DNA of 64,000 bases from Diphasiastrum complanatum (Eukaryota; Streptophyta; Lycopodiopsida; Lycopodiales; Lycopodiaceae): positions 43,300,927 to 43,364,926 of the forward strand of contig CM055101.1 of NCBI GenBank assembly GCA_029204225.1. Reading direction: 5' to 3'. The stretch's first letter is position 1. The number at the start of each line of letters is the position of its first letter. The notes under the pieces are model-generated. The model made no database searches and was not told the origin of the DNA. It saw only the letters and a list, made by a program, of their open reading frames with translations. Positions 29,801 to 60,408 of the stretch are shown piece by piece. Position numbers and translations under genes: made by a program.

Positions 29801-30804
29801 TGTCTTCATAATAATCATCATCAACTTGATGTTGATCAGCATAATTGCCCGCTTGCCATTTGCCTTTTCTTTGTTCTATCTCCTTCTATTTCTTGAAGCA
29901 TTCACGCTCCCAATGGCCAGGTTTGTTGCAATACCTACAATTTCTAGGTTTATTTTGCTTGGAATAGCCGCATCCTTGACCTCGGCCTTGATTCCAATTG
30001 CCTCAATTTGGGCCATCATTGGATTGTTCTTGAAATTGTTGAAACGATCCATGATATGAGTTTCCACCTCTTGATTGGTGTCTTCCACGACCAAATCTGC
30101 CAACACGTCCTCTCACTGCAAGAGCTTGATCAAATCCCCTTTTGCGATGACTCAAGTTCTCTTGACGTTGTTCTTCTTGCAAAAGCAATCCACCTAACTC
30201 TTCATAGGTTGGAAGATTTTCTCGTGTGGATATACTTGTCACAAACATTTGATGTGACTCACTCAAACTATTCAATGTCAATTGCACGATCTCACGATCC
30301 TGTACTTGCTCTCCAACTGCTGCTAATTGATCACGAATCTCTTTGATTTTCAGTAGGTGATCAACAACAGTTGCACCATCATCTATCCGCAATGTGTGCA
30401 GCTTCGTCTTCAAGAATAGCACTCGAGATGTGTTTGTGGTCTCAAACAATGCCTTCAACGTATCCCATGCTTTTTTTGGTCCTTCTGATCCAAAATGTAG
30501 GGAATAATTGCATCTCTAACTGATAAGTTGATGACATTTTGTGCTTTCCGTTTTCTCTTGTCAAATGCCCGCTGATCTTCTTCAATCACTGGCCTTGTCT
30601 CTTCACCTGTCACGATCTCCCATAGCTCCTTTTCCATCAAAATGTTTTCAGTTTGAATTTCCAAACTGCATAGTTGTCGGCTCCTTCCAATTTGCTTGAC
30701 TCCTTGAGGACACTCTCACTTAGAGTTGCCATTATTGAACAGATGAGTCCAGATCAAGTAATTTATCACACCACAGAACTGTATATTTTTCTGGTTATAC
30801 ACCT

Positions 30805-31047
30805 GATATCGGAATGGAGTGCGAAAGTACGGCTGCCTAGGATCCTCTTTAACTTGTGCGCGTGGATCCGATATTGGAGCATGCGATATCGGACTGGAGC
30901 GCGGATGTACAACTGCTCGGAATTCTCTTTAGCTCGTGCGCTTGAATCCGATATCGATACGGACAATATCGGATTGGAGCGCGGATGTACGACTGCTCGG
31001 GTTTTTCTTCAGCTAGCGCGCTTGGATCCGATATTGGTACGGATATA
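30805..31047. repeat. 80 bp tandem repeat in the copia leader
   Basis: Three successive units start at 30805, 30885 and about 30965. Each opens with (G/A)ATATCGG and closes with GGATCCGATAT(T/C) or a close variant, so every unit boundary is a near palindrome around CCGATATCGG. The shared core reads GGAGCGCGGATGTAC with small changes. The array lies between the primer-binding site and gag of the young copia element. Confidence 0.85.
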
Positions 31048-31585
31048 AAAAGGAGAGAATATAAGAACTTTCAGAGGGAATATTCCAGATTCCCTACTTT
31101 GGCGCGGCGGCTACGCCTCCTCCTCTTTGCTTAGATTTCGAAACGAGTGATCGTTCAAACAAACAGATATTAGTAATGTGAAAGGTATGAAGCCTCAAAG
31201 CTCTAAATGACAGTATTAGACACTGTTTGGTGTGATTTGCCATATCCCAAACAAACAAATGAGAGATTTCTTGGCACAACTCTCTGACAAATGACACTTT
31301 TCACAAAGACTAAAAAAAATATTGTAAAACTTTTCCCACTCAACAGATTTTCAATCTATCTACTGCTGCCCTGGCCTTTCCGATGCCTCCAGGACTGTGT
31401 CTTCATTCCCCACTAATAACTGTGAGCTCCAAAACCTGCAAAATACATCAAGAAGGATTTCTTCCTGCCGTTTTTGTCTCTCCAAGCTTTCACCTCCTGT
31501 GGAGGACTTTCTCACTTCGTTGTGGACCCTGTGACAAGCTGTATGCACTGATCAGGCATGCAGGACTATCGTAGGTCTGATACCA

Positions 31586-31851
31586 TGTCAACAATCAGAA
31601 ATGCAACATCAAGCATTCACAATAAGCAATCACCAAGTAGGGAGACGAAAGAAGAACACGCAATATCACTCTATCACACACTAACACCTACTGAATGTAA
31701 AATATACATATAAACCCTAAACCCTGATAGAGAGGGAGAACCTAGGAGTAGACTACTAGACTAGCCTACGGCTAGTTACAGCTAGTAATAAAGTACATCG
31801 TAAACAATAACTAGGAAGTGTAACAATGAAGTTTATCATTGATTTCTAACA
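31586..31851 (-). repeat. 5' LTR of the 26.6-31.9 kb copia element
   Basis: It runs from TGTCAACAATCAG to TTTCTAACA and is followed by AACTC. It abuts the primer-binding site at 31574-31585. Confidence 0.95.
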
Positions 31852-31856
31852 AACTC

Positions 31857-32218
31857 AATGAATCTAGATATGGAAGAAACAAAAATAAATACAATCATAA
31901 ATGAATTTCAAGATGTATTTTGAGCAGAATGACCTCATGGTTTATTACCTAATTCTAGGTCAATAGACCACATGATAGAGTTAATTTCAGGTTCATAACC
32001 TATCTTTAGACAACCATATTAGTTTTCTTAGATAGAGGAGATATAGATTCCTAATCAAATAAAAAATCATCTTAAGATGGGACACATACAACCTGATAAG
32101 TCGCATGGGGTGCTCTTGTTGTTTTTATGAAGGGATTAAAAGATAGAAGCACTTGAATGTGTGTTATGTACAAGGGATTGAATAAGGTATTTTAAAAATA
32201 GAATCGGCCATGGCTTTC
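31857..32218. other. gene-free spacer
   Basis: AT-rich DNA between the copia element's target duplication and the SINE's target duplication. Nothing recognisable was seen. Confidence 0.4.
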
Positions 32219-32227
32219 CATTATACC

Positions 32228-32310
32228 CAATGGGGTTGGTTCAGTTGGTTAGCTTGGCATCCAGAGTTTCTTTGGTCCCAGGTTCGAGCCTCCCCTTAAA
32301 AACCAAAAAG
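32228..32310 (+). mobile_element. ultra-short tRNA-derived SINE (copy 1)
   Basis: This 83 bp segment has RNA polymerase III internal promoter boxes: A box TGGTTCAGTTGG (near 32236) and B box GGTTCGAGCC (32281-32290). It ends in an A-rich tail (AAAAACCAAAAAG). CATTATACC flanks it directly on both sides (32219-32227 and 32311-32319), the target duplication expected of LINE-driven retroposition. Two further copies with the same boundaries occur at 52235-52320 and 59855-59941. The tRNA-like part cannot fold into a sound cloverleaf, so it is not a working tRNA. It is non-coding and depends on enzymes made elsewhere. Confidence 0.85.
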
Positions 32311-32319
32311 CATTATACC

Positions 32320-33095
32320 TAACGCGTTGCTAGAAAATTCCTTTTATATGAAATGGCACAATTATGTATGTTCAAAGATAGACATCATTAAAATGAACTA
32401 GACATGTAAGATACATTTACTATAAACAAAAAACAACAAATATGTATTACACAATTGTAAATTGTAATGTATTATTTATTATGAACAATAATAAACATGA
32501 ATCTATTACACTTCACTAAAAACAATAAAAAAATACATATTGTTTTTGTACAATTTTGTAAAAGTGCTTTACATTGGAAAAGGCCCCTTGTGAGGTGCTG
32601 ACCGCATAGTTCTAGCAGCTCCTTAGGGATTTAGTGATGTTTTGCAAGTTATGGATGAATGAGAAAGGGGGACATGCTTGTGAAATATAAATGAAGAAGG
32701 TAATTGTTGTAAAATGGGAGAAGAGAGAGGAGAGGCTAATATAAGGGCCTCTTCACATGAGGTGCCCGGCCCCGTGAATGATGCAAGCAGTGGAATTTTT
32801 TTTTGTTGCAGCCAAGAGCGTAGCATTGATGGCAGGCCAACCCGGAGAGCCCAAAAACCCTCCCTGAGGAGGTGCGTGGCCATATCGACCGGGCACGATT
32901 TTGTCAAGAAGGCTGGCATGCAATGTTGAAAATGGAGCAACCCACTGATCCGTTCTTGAAGTCAAGAACGGGCCGGGGTTTTGCACGAGCAAAGAGGCCC
33001 TAAGGGTGGAAGAAAACTCTGAAAAGGTACAGAAAAAAAAAAGCCATTCTTGGTGTGAAGGAGAGAGGAGAGAAAAAATAAAAGCCTTGTTGGAA
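32320..33095. other. gene-free upstream region of the sHSP gene
   Basis: AT-rich to about 32580, then more balanced. No credible coding region. A 20 bp near-perfect palindrome, CGTTCTTGA-AG-TCAAGAACG, lies at 32951-32970 and contains one TTCNNGAA half-element, possibly a distal part of the heat-shock control region. Confidence 0.45.
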
Positions 33096-33108
33096 GAAAG
33101 CTCTAGAA
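33096..33108 (+). promoter_or_regulatory. heat-shock element (distal)
   Basis: GAA-AG-CTC-TA-GAA matches the three-unit heat-shock factor site GAANNTTCNNGAA with one mismatch in the middle unit. It lies about 100 bp upstream of the TATA box of the sHSP gene. Confidence 0.65.
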
Positions 33109-33143
33109 AGTTAGAGAAAGAGAAAGACGAATGTACAAGAGTT

Positions 33144-33156
33144 TTCCAGACCTTTC
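33144..33156 (+). promoter_or_regulatory. heat-shock element (proximal)
   Basis: TTC-CA-GAC-CT-TTC matches TTCNNGAANNTTC with one mismatch. It sits about 50 bp upstream of the TATA box, a typical spacing for plant heat-shock promoters. Confidence 0.65.
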
Positions 33157-33207
33157 TTCGACCTCCCTTTCACTCTCCTCCCGCACCTTACGAACATACA
33201 TTTTTCT

Positions 33208-33217
33208 CTATATATTT
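33208..33217 (+). promoter_or_regulatory. TATA box of the sHSP gene
   Basis: CTATATATTT lies about 225 bp before the ATG. Transcription would start near 33240, giving a leader of roughly 200 nt. Its position downstream of two heat-shock elements fits heat induction through heat-shock factors (inference). Confidence 0.7.
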
Positions 33218-33440
33218 CACATGAGGCCTTTAGGATTTTCTTCATTCTTCCATAGCTTGCACCATATCAGTGAGTTCGTTACCAGCTATCTAACCCTACG
33301 CGTTTATAGTAATCGATATAATCTCTACATCGGGGATTCTCAATTGATCAACTCTCGCCATCGACGGACAATCTTGGAAACCGCAAATTACAGCAATTCA
33401 TTTCTGAGAAGGAAGTTCGTTTTCTCGTTTTTAACTGGAT

Positions 33441-34091
33441 ATGGCTTTGACACCATTCTTCTTTGGTGGAGATCAAAGTATTTTTGATCCCTTGGATAGA
33501 TTTTTTGAGCCTTTTGACAGATTTCCTCTGTGGGACAATGCACCTAATTCTCGACAGTTCGCCCGGGATGTGAGCGCCATTGCTAGTACTCGAGTTAATT
33601 GGGTTGAAACCCCGGAGGCTCACATTTTCAAGGCCGATGTACCAGGTGATTCATTGTTCCTGATCTTAGCGCACAATATCGAATAATCTTACTCAACCTG
33701 GCTTGTTGCCACAAAATTTTCATGCCCGTGCTGATCTCCTTATAGTAGTTCTTGTTCGTTTTCTCTGATTCATCTGATCTGTATTCTAAATCTTTTGAAT
33801 ATGTCTTTGCTTTGGATTACAGGGTTGAAAAAGGAAGAAGTAAAGGTTCAAGTGGAAGATGGACGCACGTTACAGATAAGCGGAGAACGCAAGAAAGAGG
33901 AGGTGGAGAAGACGGACAAATGGCATCGGGTGGAACGTACGCAGGGCAGTTTCTTGCGACGTTTCCGGTTACCAGAGAATGCGAAATTGGAGGAAGTGAA
34001 GGCCAAGGTTGAGGACGGCGTCCTCACCGTCACAGTTCCTAAAATTGAGAAACCTAAGCACGAAGTGAAGGCCGTAGAAATCTCTGGCTAA
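33441..34091 (+). CDS. cytosolic class I small heat-shock protein, intron-containing
   Basis: Two exons, 33441-33645 and 33823-34091, join at a GT-AG intron of 177 bp to give 157 residues (about 18 kDa). The ATG at 33441 starts the class I-like N-terminal arm ([13 protein letters not shown]). The alpha-crystallin domain spans about residues 51-143 ([25 protein letters not shown], in pieces; [37 protein letters not shown] at 134-142), followed by the C-terminal V-E-I anchor and EISG typical of cytosolic class I proteins. No transit or signal peptide is seen. Members form oligomers that hold unfolding proteins for refolding by Hsp70/Hsp100. The intron splits the Gly69 codon (phase 1) inside the domain, which is unusual for class I. 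Heat-shock elements and a TATA box lie upstream. The gene looks whole. Confidence 0.95.
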
Positions 34092-51981: not shown

Positions 51982-52234
51982 CTCCTCTCCTCAATTGGGC
52001 TATGGAGTCAACTTGTGAGCAAGAGTCTAACAATGGTTTAGAGTAGAACAACACTACATTCACTTGCTCAGAGGTTCAGCAAGAACTTAACAAGTGTTTG
52101 TGGCTAGTATGGCTGATTGACAAGGAAACATTTACTAGTGACAACACTCACATTCAAAGGCTTCATAGCTTGACGAGTGCTTAGGCAGCAAGACAGTTCT
52201 CCTTGTGATCATAATCTTCCAAGAGAAGGAAATG

Positions 52235-52320
52235 CTTCTTGGTTTCCAAGGGGAGGCTCGAACCTGGGACCAAAGAAACTTTGGATGCCAAGCCAACCAA
52301 CTGAGCCAACCCCGTTGGGT
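52235..52320 (-). mobile_element. ultra-short tRNA-derived SINE (copy 2)
   Basis: The minus-strand reading shows A box TGGCTCAGTTGG and B box GGTTCGAGCC with the same A/C/G-rich tail as at 32228-32310. A 14 bp direct repeat, AAGAGAAGGAAATG, flanks it exactly (52221-52234 and 52321-52334). The element is 86 bp. Confidence 0.88.
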
Positions 52321-52733
52321 AAGAGAAGGAAATGGAATGAGACACACCTCATCGCTTGCAAGCGATTGACAAAGCTTCAGCTCTTAGGCCTTAGGGAGTC
52401 TAAAAGAGCTTCCGTTCAAGGCTTATGAAAAACTAAAGAGAGTGCCTTCAAGAAAGATAGGCATGTTTCCAAAGACAATACCTTCCGTTACACTTCACAC
52501 TAGAAGTATAAGCCTCAAAATACAAAACACTTCCCTAATGCATTTAGGCACATTGGAGTATTCCAAATAGATTGGATAGGTCACCTACTGTTTGGTTTGG
52601 TAGCCAGACAATCTGCGGAGCAACATGGAACACCCAATAGCCATAGTCAAGGCAAAGTCATAGATCATCGGCCTCCTAAAGAACCGTCCCAAAGTGCACT
52701 TCAGATCGTGATTGGGAGGCTTTTTCGAGGTAG

Positions 52734-53644
52734 TGTTGCGTCGGCGCCTCAAAGGGCGTTGGGACTTGAGCGGTTTCCCCAACACGCGCTTAAGTCTAAC
52801 ATTCATCCATCATGCACTTACGTAAAAGCCAACTCAAAAATGTAACAAGCTTAACCATTCAGACTTAAGAAAACTGGAATCCCAACCAACCCGAAAGCCA
52901 ACTCAGAATCCGTCCCCAAAAGGTAACCAAAGGCAAAGACAAGCCACACATGAAACCCAAGGCATAGTGGTCGCCAAACTGACCAATTGGCATAGCGGCA
53001 AGCCCCATGTCGATGACAGGGACCCTTAGGCGCCAGCGACGCAAAAAGGTTGTAGTAAGGGTCCTTCCACTTGGACCAGTCCCGGAGGCGAAACCGAAAT
53101 GGTAATCATCCCCAAGGATCAACTTTATTAGATTTGGAAGAGGTTACATTCATACATAGACTGACCGGTCTCGGGGCCACCAACACGTGCTGGGCATTGT
53201 GCCTGGCTCGTGCTGGTAGAGGGAGCTGAGACCTGGCGACTGGATTCCTGGCGCTGGTTGAGCTGCCCAAGTTTCTGTCTGCCGGACTCCCCCTATAGTT
53301 CTACTGTGATTCGGCGCACCCCCTCTGGTTTGAAACATAGTGCTTTCTGGTAAAGCACGCTTTTTAGGACTTAGTTTTTATTTTGCTGATTAAGCCTGGC
53401 AGAATCAGTCTGGCTCCCGGACATGGGTCCCGGAAGCCGTCCCGGCGGCCGAATCAACCTGCTTTCCTGACTAGGCCATGACTCGAGCTCCAGAGCTAGC
53501 TCATGACTTTGTGACTACTTGACTGGCTCACCACAGGTCGGAGGCTCAGTCCTTGACGTTCTAACTTGCTCTGGGACCTTAGGGAGTGCCACCCCTTTGA
53601 GTCTTACAGGGCACGCTGGGTGCACCCGAGTCAGCTTTACAACA
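52734..53644 (-). mobile_element. solo LTR in duplicated block copy 1
   Basis: On the minus strand it starts TGTTGTAAAGCT and ends CGCAACA, 911 bp in all. GGTAG flanks both ends (52729-52733 and 53645-53649). Duplicated block copy 2 has a single GGTAG at this place (near 60400), the uninterrupted site. The LTR is related to the one at 61816-63043: shared start, shared GTGCCGAATCACA-like region near 53312, and a shared AATAAAGT polyadenylation region near 53125. A solo LTR arises by recombination between the two LTRs of a full element. Confidence 0.9.
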
Positions 53645-53649
53645 GGTAG

Positions 53650-54610
53650 ACTAGGGCATTCTTGAGCAAGGACATTCAGACTCCGTCCACAATGGTTCCT
53701 GAGGTTGTAGATCAGGGACAAGGGCCATGAACGTCGCAACCAAACTACAAAGCACCCTCTCAAATAGGGTAATTCGCAGGAAGAGGGAGAGCGAGCCACT
53801 GGTAGAAGAGGCAGAGAGCGGGAATTGGGCTGTAGAGAAGTCGCAGGTCAGGTAAGGAGGGATATGTCGCACGGCAGGGTGGAACGCGAGGCAGATCCGC
53901 AGGTAGATGGCTGTATTGAGCCGCAGACAGGGTCGTAGGCACATTCTTTATTTCATTAACACGCAAGGCAGGGATCGTGGCCAGGCAGGTATCGTGGCCA
54001 GAGAAGGGGGATGGGCCGTAGATCAGCAAGAAAGGAGGTAAGGAGCGGAGCAGGGGAGCGAGAACGTGGAGTTTGCACACATCAACAAGAAAGGAGGTCG
54101 CAGGTGGAGCGCGAGGCAGCAGGGAGAGCGACTACAGGCAGGAAACGCAGGTAAAAAGATATAGGAATGGCCGTTGACAGAGGACAAGGTAATAGAAAAG
54201 CATCCACAAGGTCAGGTTAGGAGGGATAGGTCGCAGGGCAGGCAAATGTTCAAAACCGCAGGGGAGGTAGGAGATGGCCAGCAAACCCGTTGGCAGCAGA
54301 ATCGCAGGTATGCTAGAGAGTAGCACAGCCCACACAGCGGCTGCAGGCAGAACGTAGATAGGGATGGGGAAGGAGAGTGTAGATCACAGGTCACAAATGG
54401 GACAAACGGGCTTCTGAATGAGCCACAGGCAGGGCAAAGGATCTGATGGCCGCTGATCAAAGATAAATGCACAGGTCAGGTTTGGAGTAGCCGCTCAGGA
54501 ATAGGTAAAGAAGGGTTGCAGGGCTGCAGGCAGAACCGTTGGCAGCACGGGAGCGGGTACGGTGGCAAACCCACAGACAACAGATAGCATAGATAGGCAC
54601 CACACTGAGA
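53650..54610. repeat. GCAGG-rich non-coding segment (in block copy 1)
   Basis: Short words GCAGG, GGCAG and CGCAGG recur every 10-40 bases without a fixed period. The open frames on the minus strand (Leu/Pro/Ser/Cys-rich) arise from this bias and carry no domain. The same segment is at 60409-61335. Confidence 0.7.
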
Positions 54611-55100
54611 AAACCCCTTCTTGAGCAGCGTTGGAAGGCTTCTATTCCATCTTCTAAATGAGTTAAAGAGCCAGCGATGGGTAAAGGCTGATATACGTCA
54701 AGTAGTCAAAGGAATGGCTGGTGACAAATGTTTGAAATGGAAACAAACAATCAATGTAAGTGGGTCTCTAGATCATAAACAATAAGCAATGAAATGCTCT
54801 ACACTACAATGGTTAATGGATTTCTGCAATAGAATGAACAAGTCAGCAACACCTCAACCTGTATGATAAGCAATCATTACCAAATTCTCAGATCACAATG
54901 TTTAACTAGACAGGCTCTTATAAAGCAAATTTTAAGGTGGATGCTAAGCAACAAATCAATAATCTATCACAAGTAGGATCACTGCTCATGATTCAGTATA
55001 GTGTCCCACTGATCAAAGGCCTGCAACACAATGTTAGCTGCAAGCAAAGAGATATAGAATGTAATGTACACAATTCTAAAATCTGTAACCACAGGGTTAG

Positions 55101-55645
55101 AGGCAGCAAAGGGATACAAGATTCAATCCCACAATGCCAGGCTCTGCAATCACCAGATTAGGAACAACAAGAAACTAATAATGCCAAATCTGAATCCACA
55201 AACAAAGTGATGAAAACACAATTTTAAAGATCAAACCAGTGAATCAATAGCAGTGAGCAGTTTGTATCAAAGATCCAACAAAGAAGTTAGAGTGGAAGGC
55301 ACCAAGCAGATCAGTCTCTTCTCCTTTTCCTCCTCGTCTCTGTGGGATTGAGCACAAATTGGAAGTGGAAGAGATGGGAGGCACCAAGCAAAACAGCTTC
55401 TACTCCTTCCCTTTCTCTCCAAGCTTCCCTTATCCATTGGGCTATGGTGTCCGGTCACAAATCATAGGGCAAATCATCATAGGGTTTTAGATTTTCACAT
55501 ACAATATGGATTTCAGAAGCGCCAGGTGCTAAGTTTGCAAAACCAACATGAATGTTGGTTATCTCACGTTGTGGAATTATTGGCTGGGTAAAGTAGTAAG
55601 TTAAACCACTGGTAGCGTTTGGGGTTGGTCAAATTTTTCCGACCC
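55101..55645. other. continuation of block copy 1, no gene
   Basis: This follows the point where copy 2 is interrupted. It contains two partly similar stretches (GGAAGGCACCAAGCAGATCAG near 55291 and GGAGGCACCAAGCAAAACAG near 55378) and no coding region. Confidence 0.4.
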
Positions 55646-57190
55646 TTAAAGGCAGGATGAACTCCTAGGTACTTGTTTCGCTCTTGGCTTCCATTCCCAT
55701 TCATCTTTAGCTGGGGAGTTAGAGTTCAACCCTTTAGTCAGATTATAGTCTTTCGATATCACACAATGGACTTGATGTCCCTGACAATGGAAATAATCCA
55801 CTCCTAATTTCACATTTGGTCCCAAGCTTGACTCAACTTGGAACTGATCGTTTCTAGATTGGTCGTGGCTATTATAGAATGTCAATATACGAGTATCAAT
55901 CAGAGCATTTTCGTATTGGGATGCAATTCCAATTGCATAATCCAAACTGGTCGGATGCTTTTGTCTCACATGGACTTGCATCTCTGTTTGCAATCGACTT
56001 ATGAAGCAATCTAATATCAATTCCATTGGAAGCGCATAGATAGATATGTGCTTTTGCACAAACCAATTAAATCTATGAGAATATCTTCCCACAGACTCAT
56101 CTTAACATTGTCTGATAGTTACCAAATGCTAACAGGCAACAGTCAGATTCATCGTGGGTGAAAACTCATCCAAGAATGCTGTTACCAATGTATCCCACGA
56201 ATCAAGAAAATGGATTTCAAAAGCTTCAACATTATCATACCAATCTCGAGCTTCATTGGTCAGATATAATGGAAATAACAGTTTCCAATCCTCAGGTTGT
56301 GAGAAACCATCTAGGAAAGAGAAGTTTGTGAATTTTCATATGAAAATATCAGCTTTATCACCTCTCTCTCCATCATAGTGATCAATCTTTAATAGGTACA
56401 CAGGCTTTGGTCTAACACAGAGGGAGTCGCCAGCAACCAACACAGGTTGCAAAAAATCATGATTAGGTTTCGCTCCTGATTTTCCAACAACATACTCCAA
56501 CTCAGCAAAGGTGGGAACACTTTCAGCGTGATCAAGACGTTCATTAGGGGATCGATGGCCCAATTCTGACACATCTTCAACAAGCGTTTGAGATCGTTCC
56601 TTATTGCCATTTGATACAATACCAAATTTTGCTAGGATTTCATTAATTTCAAAAATTGAATTATGAATCACAATAGGACTATGGTTAATAGTCACAAAAT
56701 AATTGATTTGTAATGTCGGATTCTCTTTAATTTCATAAGTGAAGTCTCCCCCTTGTTCTAAACCAATCATATCAGATTTATTTGAATCATCTCTTTCATG
56801 GTCGGTGCAAAAGTGTTATATTTCAAAAGTTTCTTCACTCAAATTTTCAAGAAAGTCGCACACCACTAAATCCCATTCTTCTTCATGAAGAAATGGTAGA
56901 TTTTCTGTGGGTTACAGTTATTGGAAATTTACCTATGGGTGATTCTCCAAGAAATAAATTTCTATACAAATTTTCTATGGCCTGAGAATCATTCTCATCA
57001 TAGAATAAAAATCCTCGTTGCATTAGGCGCGTGGGAATCATGATTATGATTTTTCAATCAATCAATTTTTTTTAAAAAAAAAAAAGGAACTTCCAACACG
57101 TCCAGTATTGGTCTAGTTCTCAGTACAATGCCCATTGACCCTACTTGCACAAACCATTACTCCAAACAAACCTCACAATTTTCGGTGCTC
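55646..57190 (-). mobile_element. gypsy-like gag remnant
   Basis: The minus-strand frame 56092-55646 resembles the second half of a Ty3/gypsy capsid (RYSHRFNWFVQKH, LILDCFISRLQTEMQ, SLDYAIGIASQYE), followed by a CX2C-like linker. The frame at 56770-56336 lies upstream in the same orientation and may be gag N-terminal or unrelated. No pol or LTR is joined to it. Its 5' flank is interrupted by the CACTA element. Broken. Confidence 0.6.
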
Positions 57191-57194
57191 AAGC

Positions 57195-59340
57195 CCCAAC
57201 AACAAAATGTGCGATTTCCGACACAAAGTTCCGACGGATTCAAAAAAAATTCATAATCCGTCGGAATCCGACATAATAATACGTCGGAATCCGACACAAA
57301 AAAAAAAAAAATTGCCGAAATATATTTTTTTTGCCAGAAATATTTTTTTTACAGACATCGGATTCTGACGGCCAATAAAAATGTCGGAATCCGACATCCC
57401 ATTTCGGAGACTGCAATTTTTTAAATGGATGACGTCACCTGTCCGTGCAAAAAAAAAGCACAAAGCGGACGTCGGATTCCGACGGATAATACAGATGTCG
57501 GAATCTGACGTCCGTCACCGAATTCTCAAAGCCGCATCATTTTTCTAGGGTTTTCTTATTTTTTATTCTTGCACGAGATTGTTGGAGATCGGCTTTTGGC
57601 GCTTCTCCTAAGCTCTATCAATTCCATTTGTCTCATTCCAAATACGATTCTTTTGTTTTGTTATGTGCAACTAAGATTTCTTTCTTTGTAACTTTTTTTT
57701 GTACACTATCTTCCTTGTATTGTATATTTTGTGTAGTTAAACACAAATATGTGTCTTAGTGATTTATGATCATGAGCGAATTAGAGAGGAAGAGAAGGAT
57801 GTGTGTGAGAGACATGAGAGAGGGCAAGAAAACATAGATAGAAGAGTTTGATTTAATATTATGTTCTTTGTAAATTTTAGGGTTTAGATTTAATGTTATG
57901 TTCTTTGTGAAATAGTGTGAGACTGAGAGCTCTTGAGGTTTGAATGAAGATCATAACCAGCTCCACCATCAAAGATGTAGAGCTACCACTTTTTCTCACT
58001 GATTGATCCAGTATGGCTATCTTGTTGCTACTCCCTATCGAGCCATAAAGGGTAATCCATCGTTGTCTGATACATGTAAAATGAGATATCAGCTAGAGAA
58101 AGCTAATGAAGCTTTCCGTTGAAAATTAGAACTCAAAATGGACTTTGAAGAGTGCCATTGACTCACTATCTCTGTTGGAAGCTTGAGATATCTTGGCTAT
58201 GGGGTGCTTAATTATCTTTGGTCTGCGAGTTAGAACGCAGTTTTACTTGCAAGATATTTGGAGAGCTGGCCTACCATTGTTGCTAGATGAGTGAGCCATC
58301 TAACCATTCAATCACATTATAGCCGTTGAGGAATTGAACGTTGACTTCCAAAATACTGAAGGATTATTGCTGATTTCCAAAAGAGAGTTGAGAGATGTGA
58401 TTATTAACATCGCTACCTCTATAATACACCTGACCATCGCTGCTACTACTTTGCAAGCCTTCACTATGCCTATGAGTATTAGATATGAAGGAAAGCCATC
58501 ACTAAGCTAGTTGTCAGATCAGAGACTCAACTAACTGAGCCTTTACGACCATGAAAAGAGAGCTTGCAATTGTTGTCTAAAGCTGATCTATCAACGACCA
58601 TTGAGAACTCACTGATTTATTGTCAATGGGAGCCCTCGCTCATGGCTGTTCTAGTTGAGAGCAGTTCTGTCCTAGAAAAGGACAGAAGCAAAGTGACAAA
58701 CATAGTAGAATCAATTGAAGCATTCATGAGTAGCACTTCTTCGCTTTCCGACTACATGCATATGCACTCAGAAATAGGTATGGCTTTATCTATTTTCAGT
58801 TCGTTTCATCTATGTCATTTTTTGTAATAATTTATTTTTCGTATGCACTTCAAATTCCTGTCGATTGGAGTATGTTTGGTTTTTGCCACGGTTTTCTTTT
58901 TGCCACGTCCGGCCATGTGGACATCGGAATCCGACGTCCACGTGGCAAAAAAAAAAAAAGTGAAATTTTTTTTTCAAGTTTTTTTTTTCCACGTGGACGT
59001 CGGATTACGACGGCCCCGCCACGTAGACGTTGGATTTCGACGTCCACGTGGCAGAAGAAAAAAAAAGAGAATATTTTTTTTTTCGTTTTTTTTCCACGGA
59101 CGCGTCGGACGTGGCGGGGCCGTCGTAATCCGACGTCCACATGACATGTTCTCCGGTTCGTTTTTACCGGCCGGTTGTCGATTTTTGGGCTTGGCGTTGG
59201 ATTCCGACGGATTTTAAATGCGACGGATTCTGACGACCTTATAGCGACGTATTTTTCGACTCCCACGTCGATTCAAAAAAAAATTAAAATGCGATTTCAC
59301 GTTAGAAATCCCGTCGAAAATCGCGGCAATTCTTGTAGTG
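57195..59340. mobile_element. non-autonomous CACTA (En/Spm-type) DNA transposon
   Basis: The right end reads TTCTTGTAGTG at 59330-59340, the inverse of the classic CACTACAAGAA terminus. The left end at 57195 (CCCAACAAC) matches its inverse at about 20 of 28 positions. AGC flanks both sides (57192-57194 and 59341-59343), the 3 bp duplication of this superfamily. Subterminal blocks at 57200-57525 and 58915-59265 carry many copies of (A/C)GTCGGAATCCGAC and its inverse, as CACTA transposase-binding regions do. The 1.3 kb centre has no transposase motif, so the element would move only with enzymes from another copy. The left terminus has drifted from CACTA, so it may now be immobile. It sits inside the gypsy-like remnant. 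Confidence 0.87.
57540..58850. other. centre of the CACTA element, possibly captured sequence
   Basis: This 1.3 kb core lacks the subterminal repeats and differs in composition from the ends. An 87-codon frame on the plus strand (58564-58827, VESSSVLEKDRSKVTNIVES in part) is its longest reasonable frame. No family is recognised. Non-autonomous CACTA elements often carry pieces of host genes, which is a possibility here but is not shown. Confidence 0.4.
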
Positions 59341-59486
59341 AGCCTTATCCAAAAAGACCTCGAGAGTCACTCATAAAATTGATACAATAGAGGCTCCGAT
59401 TGCCACAAGGCATTCAAACCTTCACGGACAATTTGGATCAATCAAGCTTTTGGCTGTGCAAGTTAATGGTCAATTTAACAGAACCA
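59341..59486. other. right flank of the CACTA insertion
   Basis: Presumably the continuation of the retroelement DNA interrupted at 57194. Apart from the AGC duplication nothing is recognised. Confidence 0.4.
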
Positions 59487-59598
59487 TTTGAAAACACTTT
59501 CAAACAATAAACAAGAATTCTAAAGGAGCTCATGCTCCTCTTGACAGATGCATGAGCTCCTTTAGAATTCTTGTTTATTGTTTGAAAGTGTTTTCAAA
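59487..59598. repeat. perfect 49 bp inverted repeat
   Basis: The left arm 59487-59535 (starting TTTGAAAACACTTTC) and right arm 59550-59598 are exact reverse complements separated by 14 bases. It ends three bases before duplicated block copy 2. A transcript would form a 49 bp perfect stem. Confidence 0.97.
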
Positions 59599-59854
59599 CG
59601 GCTCCTCTCCTCAATTGGGCTATGGAGTCAACTTGTGAGCAAGAGTCTAACAATGGTTTAGAGTAGAACAACACTACATTCACTTGCTCAGAGGTTCAAC
59701 AAGAACTTAACAAGTATTTGTGGCTAGTATGGCTGATTGACAAGGAAACCTTTACTAGTGACAACACTCACATTCAGAGGCTTCATAGCTTGACGGGTGC
59801 TTAGGCAGCAAGATAGTTCTCCTTGTGATCATAATCTTCCAAGAGAAGGAAATG

Positions 59855-59941
59855 CTTCTTGGTTTCCAAGGGGAAGCTCGAACCTGAGACCAAAGAAACT
59901 TTGGATGTCAAGCTAACCAACTGAGCCAACCCCGTTGGGCT
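59855..59941 (-). mobile_element. ultra-short tRNA-derived SINE (copy 3)
   Basis: The same insertion as at 52235-52320, carried along by the duplication, with AAGAGAAGGAAATG at 59841-59854 and 59942-59955. It differs by a few substitutions, including one in the box B region (AGCTTCCCC side). Confidence 0.85.
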
Positions 59942-60408
59942 AAGAGAAGGAAATGGAATGAGACACACCTCATCGCTTGACCCAGGAAATGGAATGAGGT
60001 GTGTCTCAGGAAATGGAATGAGACACACCTCATCGCTTGCAAGCGATTGACAAAGCTTCAGCTCTTAGGCCTTAGGGAGTCAGAGCTTCCGTTCAGGGCT
60101 TTTGGAAAACTAAAGAGAGTGCCTTCAAAAAAGATAGGCATGTTTTCAAAGACAATGCCTTCCGTTACACTTCACACTAGAAGTATAAGCCTCAAAATAC
60201 AAAGCACTTCCCTAATGCATTTGGGCACATTGGAGTATTCCAAATAGATTGGATAGGTCACCTACTGTTTGGTAGCTAGACAATTTGCGGAGCAGCATGA
60301 AACACCTGATAGCCATAGTCAAGGCAAAGTCAGAGATCAGCGGCCTCCTAAAGAACCTTCCCACAGGCCACTTCACATCGTGATTGGGAGGCTTTTTCGA
60401 GGTAGATT

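Follow-up and report, generated by a model that had tools for sequence, protein, structure and literature searches.

Our comparison of three short repeats in the window (the whole stretch of 64,000 nucleotides that was analysed) with their relatives in the whole 1.745-Gb genome, which was covered by all genome-wide searches, points to a family of tail-less SINEs of about 85 bp that is mobilised in trans by an endonuclease/reverse transcriptase of LINE type and whose arrays arise mainly by serial insertion; we give this reading a probability of roughly 80%. The family is nearly site-specific, repeatedly inserted at hot sites and apparently active recently. Its target, Y/CATT (the slash marks the nick), and the recurrence of insertions at the same site lead beyond the original prediction of a tRNA-derived SINE, of which the short retroposed element has stood, while the loose tail and the tRNA likeness beyond the A and B boxes have not.

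The three predicted copies have been recovered with nhmmer in the 64,000-nt window at their expected positions (97.9, 100.9 and 99.9 bits for copies 1, 2 and 3), the next-best match being non-significant (6.8 bits); their coordinates, and those of their parts, are listed in Table 1. To judge from its open reading frames, the window looks like plant DNA.

Table 1. Positions in the window of the three SINE copies, their target duplications and the motifs of copy 1.
Feature	Positions	Strand	Remark
SINE copy 1	32228..32310	+	full length from 32226; CC common to element and duplication
Copy 1, 5' target duplication CATTATACC	32219..32227	+	
Copy 1, 3' target duplication CATTATACC	32311..32319	+	
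Copy 1, A-box-like TGGTTCAGTTG	32237..32247	+	consensus script on commonest haplotype; place read off copy 1
Copy 1, B-box-like GGTTCGAGCC	32281..32290	+	script on commonest haplotype; place read off copy 1
Copy 1, constant 3' end, variant CTTAAAAACCAAAAAG (family form CTTGGAAACCAAGAAG)	32295..32310	+	
SINE copy 2	52235..52320	-	core identical to commonest library haplotype
Copy 2, target duplication at element 3' end, CATTTCCTTCTCTT on element strand	52221..52234	-	
Copy 2, target duplication at element 5' end	52321..52334	-	
SINE copy 3	59855..59941	-	other variant, at site paralogous to that of copy 2
Copy 3, target duplication at element 3' end	59841..59854	-	
Copy 3, target duplication at element 5' end	59942..59955	-	

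Copies 2 and 3 occupy two paralogous copies of one dispersed host repeat and share the duplication AAGAGAAGGAAATG, but they are different variants with different 5' junctions. The idea that they go back to one insertion has been overturned by the comparison of the host-repeat paralogues and by the closest empty counterpart of copy 3, L184 (C10:56756620-56756850), which lies in a near-identical duplicate of the window region where the site of copy 2 is filled (L186). The SINE is absent from L184, and its flanks match those of copy 3 at 126 of 126 bases on one side and, on the other, at 38 of 38 beside the element and at 113 of 113 past some 60 additional bp that are present only in the window. 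Because the variant and the 5' junction differ, and because L184 has the flanks without the SINE, the two copies are separate insertions; most simply, copy 3 would be a young one, although L184 may alternatively differ from copy 3 through exact loss of the SINE, or because the two represent haplotypes of the same region. Target duplications are found at all three copies, those of copies 2 and 3 being separate though at paralogous sites.

Three further observations concern the surroundings of the copies. The extra bases beside copy 3 (59948-60007), absent from the otherwise matching L184, form a local duplication that is partly inverted (GGAAATGGAATGAG... with GAGGTGTGTCTC) and may have arisen during repair when copy 3 inserted. 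The stretches 30571-33810 and 52056-60120 of the window have a near-identical duplicate at C10:56.72-56.76 Mb, 13.4 Mb away on the same contig (identity about 99.5% around copy 1), which is either a real segmental duplication or a misplaced haplotype. Long inverted repeats at 58904-59083 and 59500-59585, with sub-threshold matches to unrelated RNA families, mostly miRNAs, are probably hairpin or MITE-like repeats.

In the genome, 1,892+2,003 matches at up to three mismatches were obtained with a 30-mer taken from the SINE's 5' half, while the reversed pattern has none; thousands of matches against an empty control exclude chance for the window copies. Exact matches to the 16-base 3' end CTTGGAAACCAAGAAG, each with a base other than G 18 positions further on, number 2,258+2,260 = 4,518 (reversed control 1+0), and from this count we estimate a family total of about 5,500 copies. 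The commonest form is 85 nt long; a script using the A and B box consensus has placed the A-box motif at 12 and the B-box motif at 56, and only about 20 nt follow the B box. The family is therefore a short, non-coding dispersed repeat with A and B boxes, as SINEs are, and its predicted shared ends and near lack of a body hold genome-wide, with at least 4,518 exact 3' ends. The A/C/G tail of the original prediction has been replaced by a fixed 16-mer: the 3' end ...CCAAGAAG is constant in most copies, with target DNA directly after it and neither poly(A) nor the simple-repeat tail that is usual, but not obligatory, for SINEs. That the core is a piece of a longer conserved element is ruled out, as predicted, by the flanks, which beyond the duplications differ among loci. 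An exact SINE 25-mer has no match in collections of viral and non-plant genome contigs, and the literature on plant SINE families, tail-less SINEs and same-site arrays, covered mainly in non-subscription journals, has yielded no matching element.

The expectation that flanking duplications recur at other loci has been confirmed. Duplications scoring at least 9 are present at 55 of 63 unique loci (75 blocks minus 12 duplicates), with 5 among 3,906 pairs in a flank-swapped control; by script, at a score of at least 8, they are present in 32 of 40 copies chosen by their 3' end only, and at least three of the eight missed copies (L131, L140, L149) show a duplication by eye. Eight of the 63 loci and 50 of 173 blocks have no duplication at threshold, some being cut by locus ends and some looking old. 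The duplications are variable in length, mostly 14-16 bp (range 9-18 bp), and, as is typical of SINEs, 5'-truncated copies also occur; because duplications flank the truncated copies as well (e.g. L119, L121, L124, L143, L145), we conclude that the SINE has moved by LINE-type target-primed reverse transcription. Empty sites with one copy of the duplication are represented by L184 and by the host repeat of copies 2 and 3, where the joined flanks of copy 2 match 13 places contiguously across the insertion point (93-99% identity), some of them on small contigs that may duplicate chromosome places; L181 and L182, which match the host repeat on one side, hold no SINE.

The insertion sites are narrowly defined. 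At 105 unique sites (173 blocks, among them the odd-tail loci L071-L095, reduced to 123 with a duplication and then by 18 near-duplicates), Y is located at -1 in 99%, and the duplication starts with C (98%), A (98%), T (96%) and T (86%), followed by W (83%) and T (53%); T is at most weakly enriched upstream (44% at -9, 39% at -12). CAT directly follows 4,238 of the 4,518 exact tails, to which no duplication filter was applied, and CA comes next in 97 of 100 listed tails (CATT 77, CATA 10, CATC 4, CACT 3, CAAT 2, CATG 1), the other three continuing with TATT (two) or GATT (one). The consensus is Y/CATT, where the first-strand nick falls on the bottom strand at 5'-AATG/R; its information is about nine bits, summed over columns against a uniform background. 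Among 24 sites that depart from CATT on either side, the departure is the same on both sides in 16 and not in 8, and because of these 16 sites we regard the CATT letters as target DNA rather than copied RNA.

The same target base has been used repeatedly. Exact SINE-duplication-SINE junctions number 112+153 = 265 (reversed control 0), which does not mean 265 events, because segmentally duplicated loci are in the list; for comparison, if 5,500 hits fell at random on YCATT sites, about 1-2 same-site pairs would be expected, or about 12 or 50 under narrower target motifs. At least two copies are found at seven of 86 listed loci, which contain 21 of the 100 listed tails, and the longest array (L096) has 10 units. 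The units are of mixed variants: in 41 of 43 unique arrays, at least two of the 12 library haplotypes (some of them one base apart) are matched, and exact library haplotypes are common among the units, while the duplications remain nearly identical. From 29 complete arrays, incomplete arrays and truncated units being left out, 22 have at least two readable 5' junctions, which differ in letters in 19 and in length in 14; some of the differences in letters reflect the first bases of the variants themselves, and the length difference of L031 comes from a deletion in the duplication.

Two hot sites are recurrent across paralogues. Copies of the host repeat carry at least five SINE variants at the same base: that of copy 2 (also in L186 and in the first unit of L176), that of copy 3, that of the second unit of L176, that of L178/L179 (also in L177) and that of L180; in part, such different single variants at one site could be the reduction of an older array. 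At the second hot site, in paralogous stretches of C7, L187 is a 5'-truncated copy, L188 a single copy of full length and L097/L189 an array.

The order of the units within the arrays is suggestive, and no more than that, of younger-looking units on the 5' side, with the outer context being re-used. Private changes are fewer toward the 5' side in the 29 arrays (permutation p 0.013, capped 0.00995), with means of 1.6 for the leftmost and 3.2 for the rightmost unit; the end units agree with this trend in 14 arrays, disagree in 10 and tie in 5, and a test on 43 arrays, including those cut by locus ends, has given a Wilcoxon p of 0.009. To judge from the sequences of L096 and L052, exchange between units plainly also happens: a two-unit block is repeated in L096, the number and the order of the units differ between the paralogous L052 and L096, and a one-unit difference separates L108 from L165/L166. 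In L103, the first unit is followed by CATTATTTTAGGCTA, which is not the duplication of L103 itself; the SINE end with this 15-mer occurs exactly only in L103 and four times in an array on C7, and at 1-2 mismatches in nine places, six of them in the same C7 stretch and three elsewhere. The simplest reading would be a dimer retroposition, from a read-through RNA of two units of the C7 array, in which the donor unit order has not been found.

The tRNA origin of the element, as originally predicted, is suggested by its A and B boxes and has found no support beyond them: ARAGORN has reported no tRNA gene in the window and in 12 loci, and Rfam no tRNA match in the window or in six loci at a lax threshold. 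For four variants, the RNA is predicted to fold into a rod by pairing of the 5' CCAACGGGG region with CCCCTTGG, which is located close to the 3' end (fold z-scores -1.8, -2.5, -4.3 and -2.5). Across 32 distinct copies, hand-picked from 95 plus the listed array units, 97.6% of the cells pair, against 28-67% with the partners slid, a count that favours the fold because the structure has been derived from one of those sequences. One pair of the rod has changed from G-C to A-U in 12 copies; two pairs have changed on both sides, which is no excess over shuffles (346 of 500 reach 2).

A LINE with a matching 3' tail, which the prediction had called for, has not been found genome-wide at up to one mismatch to the 3' 20-mer of the SINE; a LINE whose end resembles that of the SINE in structure may still be present. 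Among 25 places that have this 20-mer without SINE-like bases before it, 21 are SINE copies, and the four separate places (L072, L079, L084, L089) have been rejected as partners, having four different upstream sequences; the open reading frames of L072, L084 and L089 were read by eye. In nine 3' regions of L1-type (zf-RVT) elements, a clear poly(A) run is present in four (L155, L157, L160, L161) and an A-rich stretch in L158 and L162, while no end is seen in L156, L159 and L163. A second LINE type (L152-L154), of which two members were scanned and have RVT_1 and endonuclease domains, continues on its 3' side into repeats of the (CTTT)n or (CT)n-like kind. The SINE end is absent from all these LINE 3' ends, the nine of zf-RVT type and L152-L154. 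The constant 3' end and the predicted rod are candidates for the features by which an enzyme may recognise the SINE RNA. Two side observations were made in this search. In L152, L153 and L154, the endonuclease-RT frame reaches up to 1,183 aa and has C-terminal QITSFF-like motifs, which we take to resemble the PCNA-binding box. On six small contigs (C895, C3077, C429, C3692, C4775, C4778), zf-RVT matches recur tens of kilobases apart, several in open frames of more than 1,500 and up to 7,233 aa; they perhaps belong to a tandem repeat such as rDNA, and not to LINEs.

In the mechanism that we propose, the SINE would be transcribed by Pol III from its putative A and B boxes, a partner reverse transcriptase would bind the RNA, predicted to be a rod and conserved at its 3' end, and the preference of the endonuclease for Y/CA would pick the site, perhaps helped if the nicked AATG end pairs with RNA that ends in ...CAUU(UU). 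A unit [duplication-SINE]n would then grow mainly by serial insertion, the target being recopied at each event, and arrays would later be reshaped in part by unequal exchange; how far growth is by re-insertion rather than by exchange, we infer. A tentative and rather doubtful extension is that the target itself supplies the tail: Pol III would terminate in the T-rich start of the duplication, the resulting RNA ...AAGCAUU(UU) would pair with the nicked AATG, and hot sites would grow arrays outward. The fall in strictness with distance from the nick (98, 98, 96, 86, 83 and 53%) is as primer pairing would predict.

The arrays could also come from resident SINEs that attract new ones, at sites that were not hot from the start, and the concentration of the listed tails in few loci is in keeping with it; we think this somewhat unlikely, as different insertions have hit the same site in separate paralogues, the junction past a SINE (AAG/CATT) has no Y at -1, and private changes are scarcer in units nearer the 5' side, which re-use of the outer, original context would lead one to expect (the end units being split 14, 10 and 5). 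The 14-16 bp duplications could instead have served unequal crossing over or slippage, and gene conversion could have mixed the variants. This would account for the repeated block of L096 and for the unit differences between L052 and L096 and between L108 and L165/L166; it is unlikely as the main source of the arrays, given that 5' junction lengths differ in most readable arrays, that nearly all arrays have more than one nearest haplotype (some being one base apart), that many units are exact library haplotypes between nearly identical duplications, and that paralogues have different single copies at one and the same base.

A plant SINE of the ordinary kind, moved by L1 LINEs that recognise poly(A) and since deprived of its A tail by decay, appears improbable to us: L1-type LINEs with poly(A) are present in the genome and the SINE 3' end is A-rich (ACCAAGAAG), but copies that are identical to each other lack an A tail and stop at the same base, the targets are Y/CATT against the TT/AAAA of mammalian L1, and CATT follows none of four exact L1 3' ends, a weak point, as two of these ends are apparently duplicates of one locus. 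The ends CCAACGGGG and CCCCTTGG are inverted-repeat-like, and their pairing in the predicted fold is what a miniature DNA transposon would offer; we consider this reading scarcely credible, because the duplications vary from 9 to 18 bp instead of having a fixed length, truncated copies lack intact inverted ends and are nevertheless flanked by duplications, and the inverted repeat does not extend over the last bases, AAACCAAGAAG. Our preferred reading remains target-primed insertion in trans of a tail-less SINE, with serial insertion into its arrays.

Among the known systems, the rodent ID elements, which have an A-rich tail and L1 as their partner, and the 5' domain of BC1 RNA share with this SINE the size of a tRNA, the lack of a body and, by prediction, a rod-shaped RNA; the A-rich tail is missing here, and the target is Y/CATT. 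The p-SINE and Au-like families, plant SINEs that end in T, have a tRNA-unrelated body and a T run that is their own, whereas the T-rich letters here are target DNA. In passages of PMC3747384, they have no poly(A) and no determined partner LINE. In passages of PMC5322556, mammalian tailless retropseudogenes are described as lacking an A tail, inserted at sites complementary to the RNA end and slightly off the TT/AAAA target, with only eight U2-derived cases reported in maize; as portrayed there, they derive from 3'-truncated cellular RNAs with many end points, while this SINE is self-renewing and has one 3' end. The 'Tn-TA' signature of legume and reptile RTE LINEs and SINEs, in the portion of PMC13295347 that describes it, is a family-specific motif at the first nick; here the nick is at Y/CATT, with no upstream T stretch. 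Precise parallel SINE insertions at the same base between species are given, in passages of PMC10531181, as 0.18-0.29% of insertions in whales and 0.01-0.04% in primates, against seven multi-copy loci of 86 listed in one genome here, although the measures differ.

The site choice of LINEs and their recognition of tail-less RNA are hard to study, because their targets are usually loose. With a motif of about nine bits that thousands of insertions have used, repeat hits on single bases and matched empty paralogues, this family offers a natural test. For families of this kind, it also weakens the rule that SINE insertions show almost no homoplasy, and elements like this one may escape the annotation of plant SINEs, as AnnoSINE, according to passages of PMC8825457, drops candidates that have inverted repeats by the duplications or a large share of tandem repeats. 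If the target does supply the tail, the landing site would be primer, landing code and terminator of the next copy at once, and heritable hot sites would grow arrays at their outer side, formally like the growth of CRISPR arrays at the leader end.
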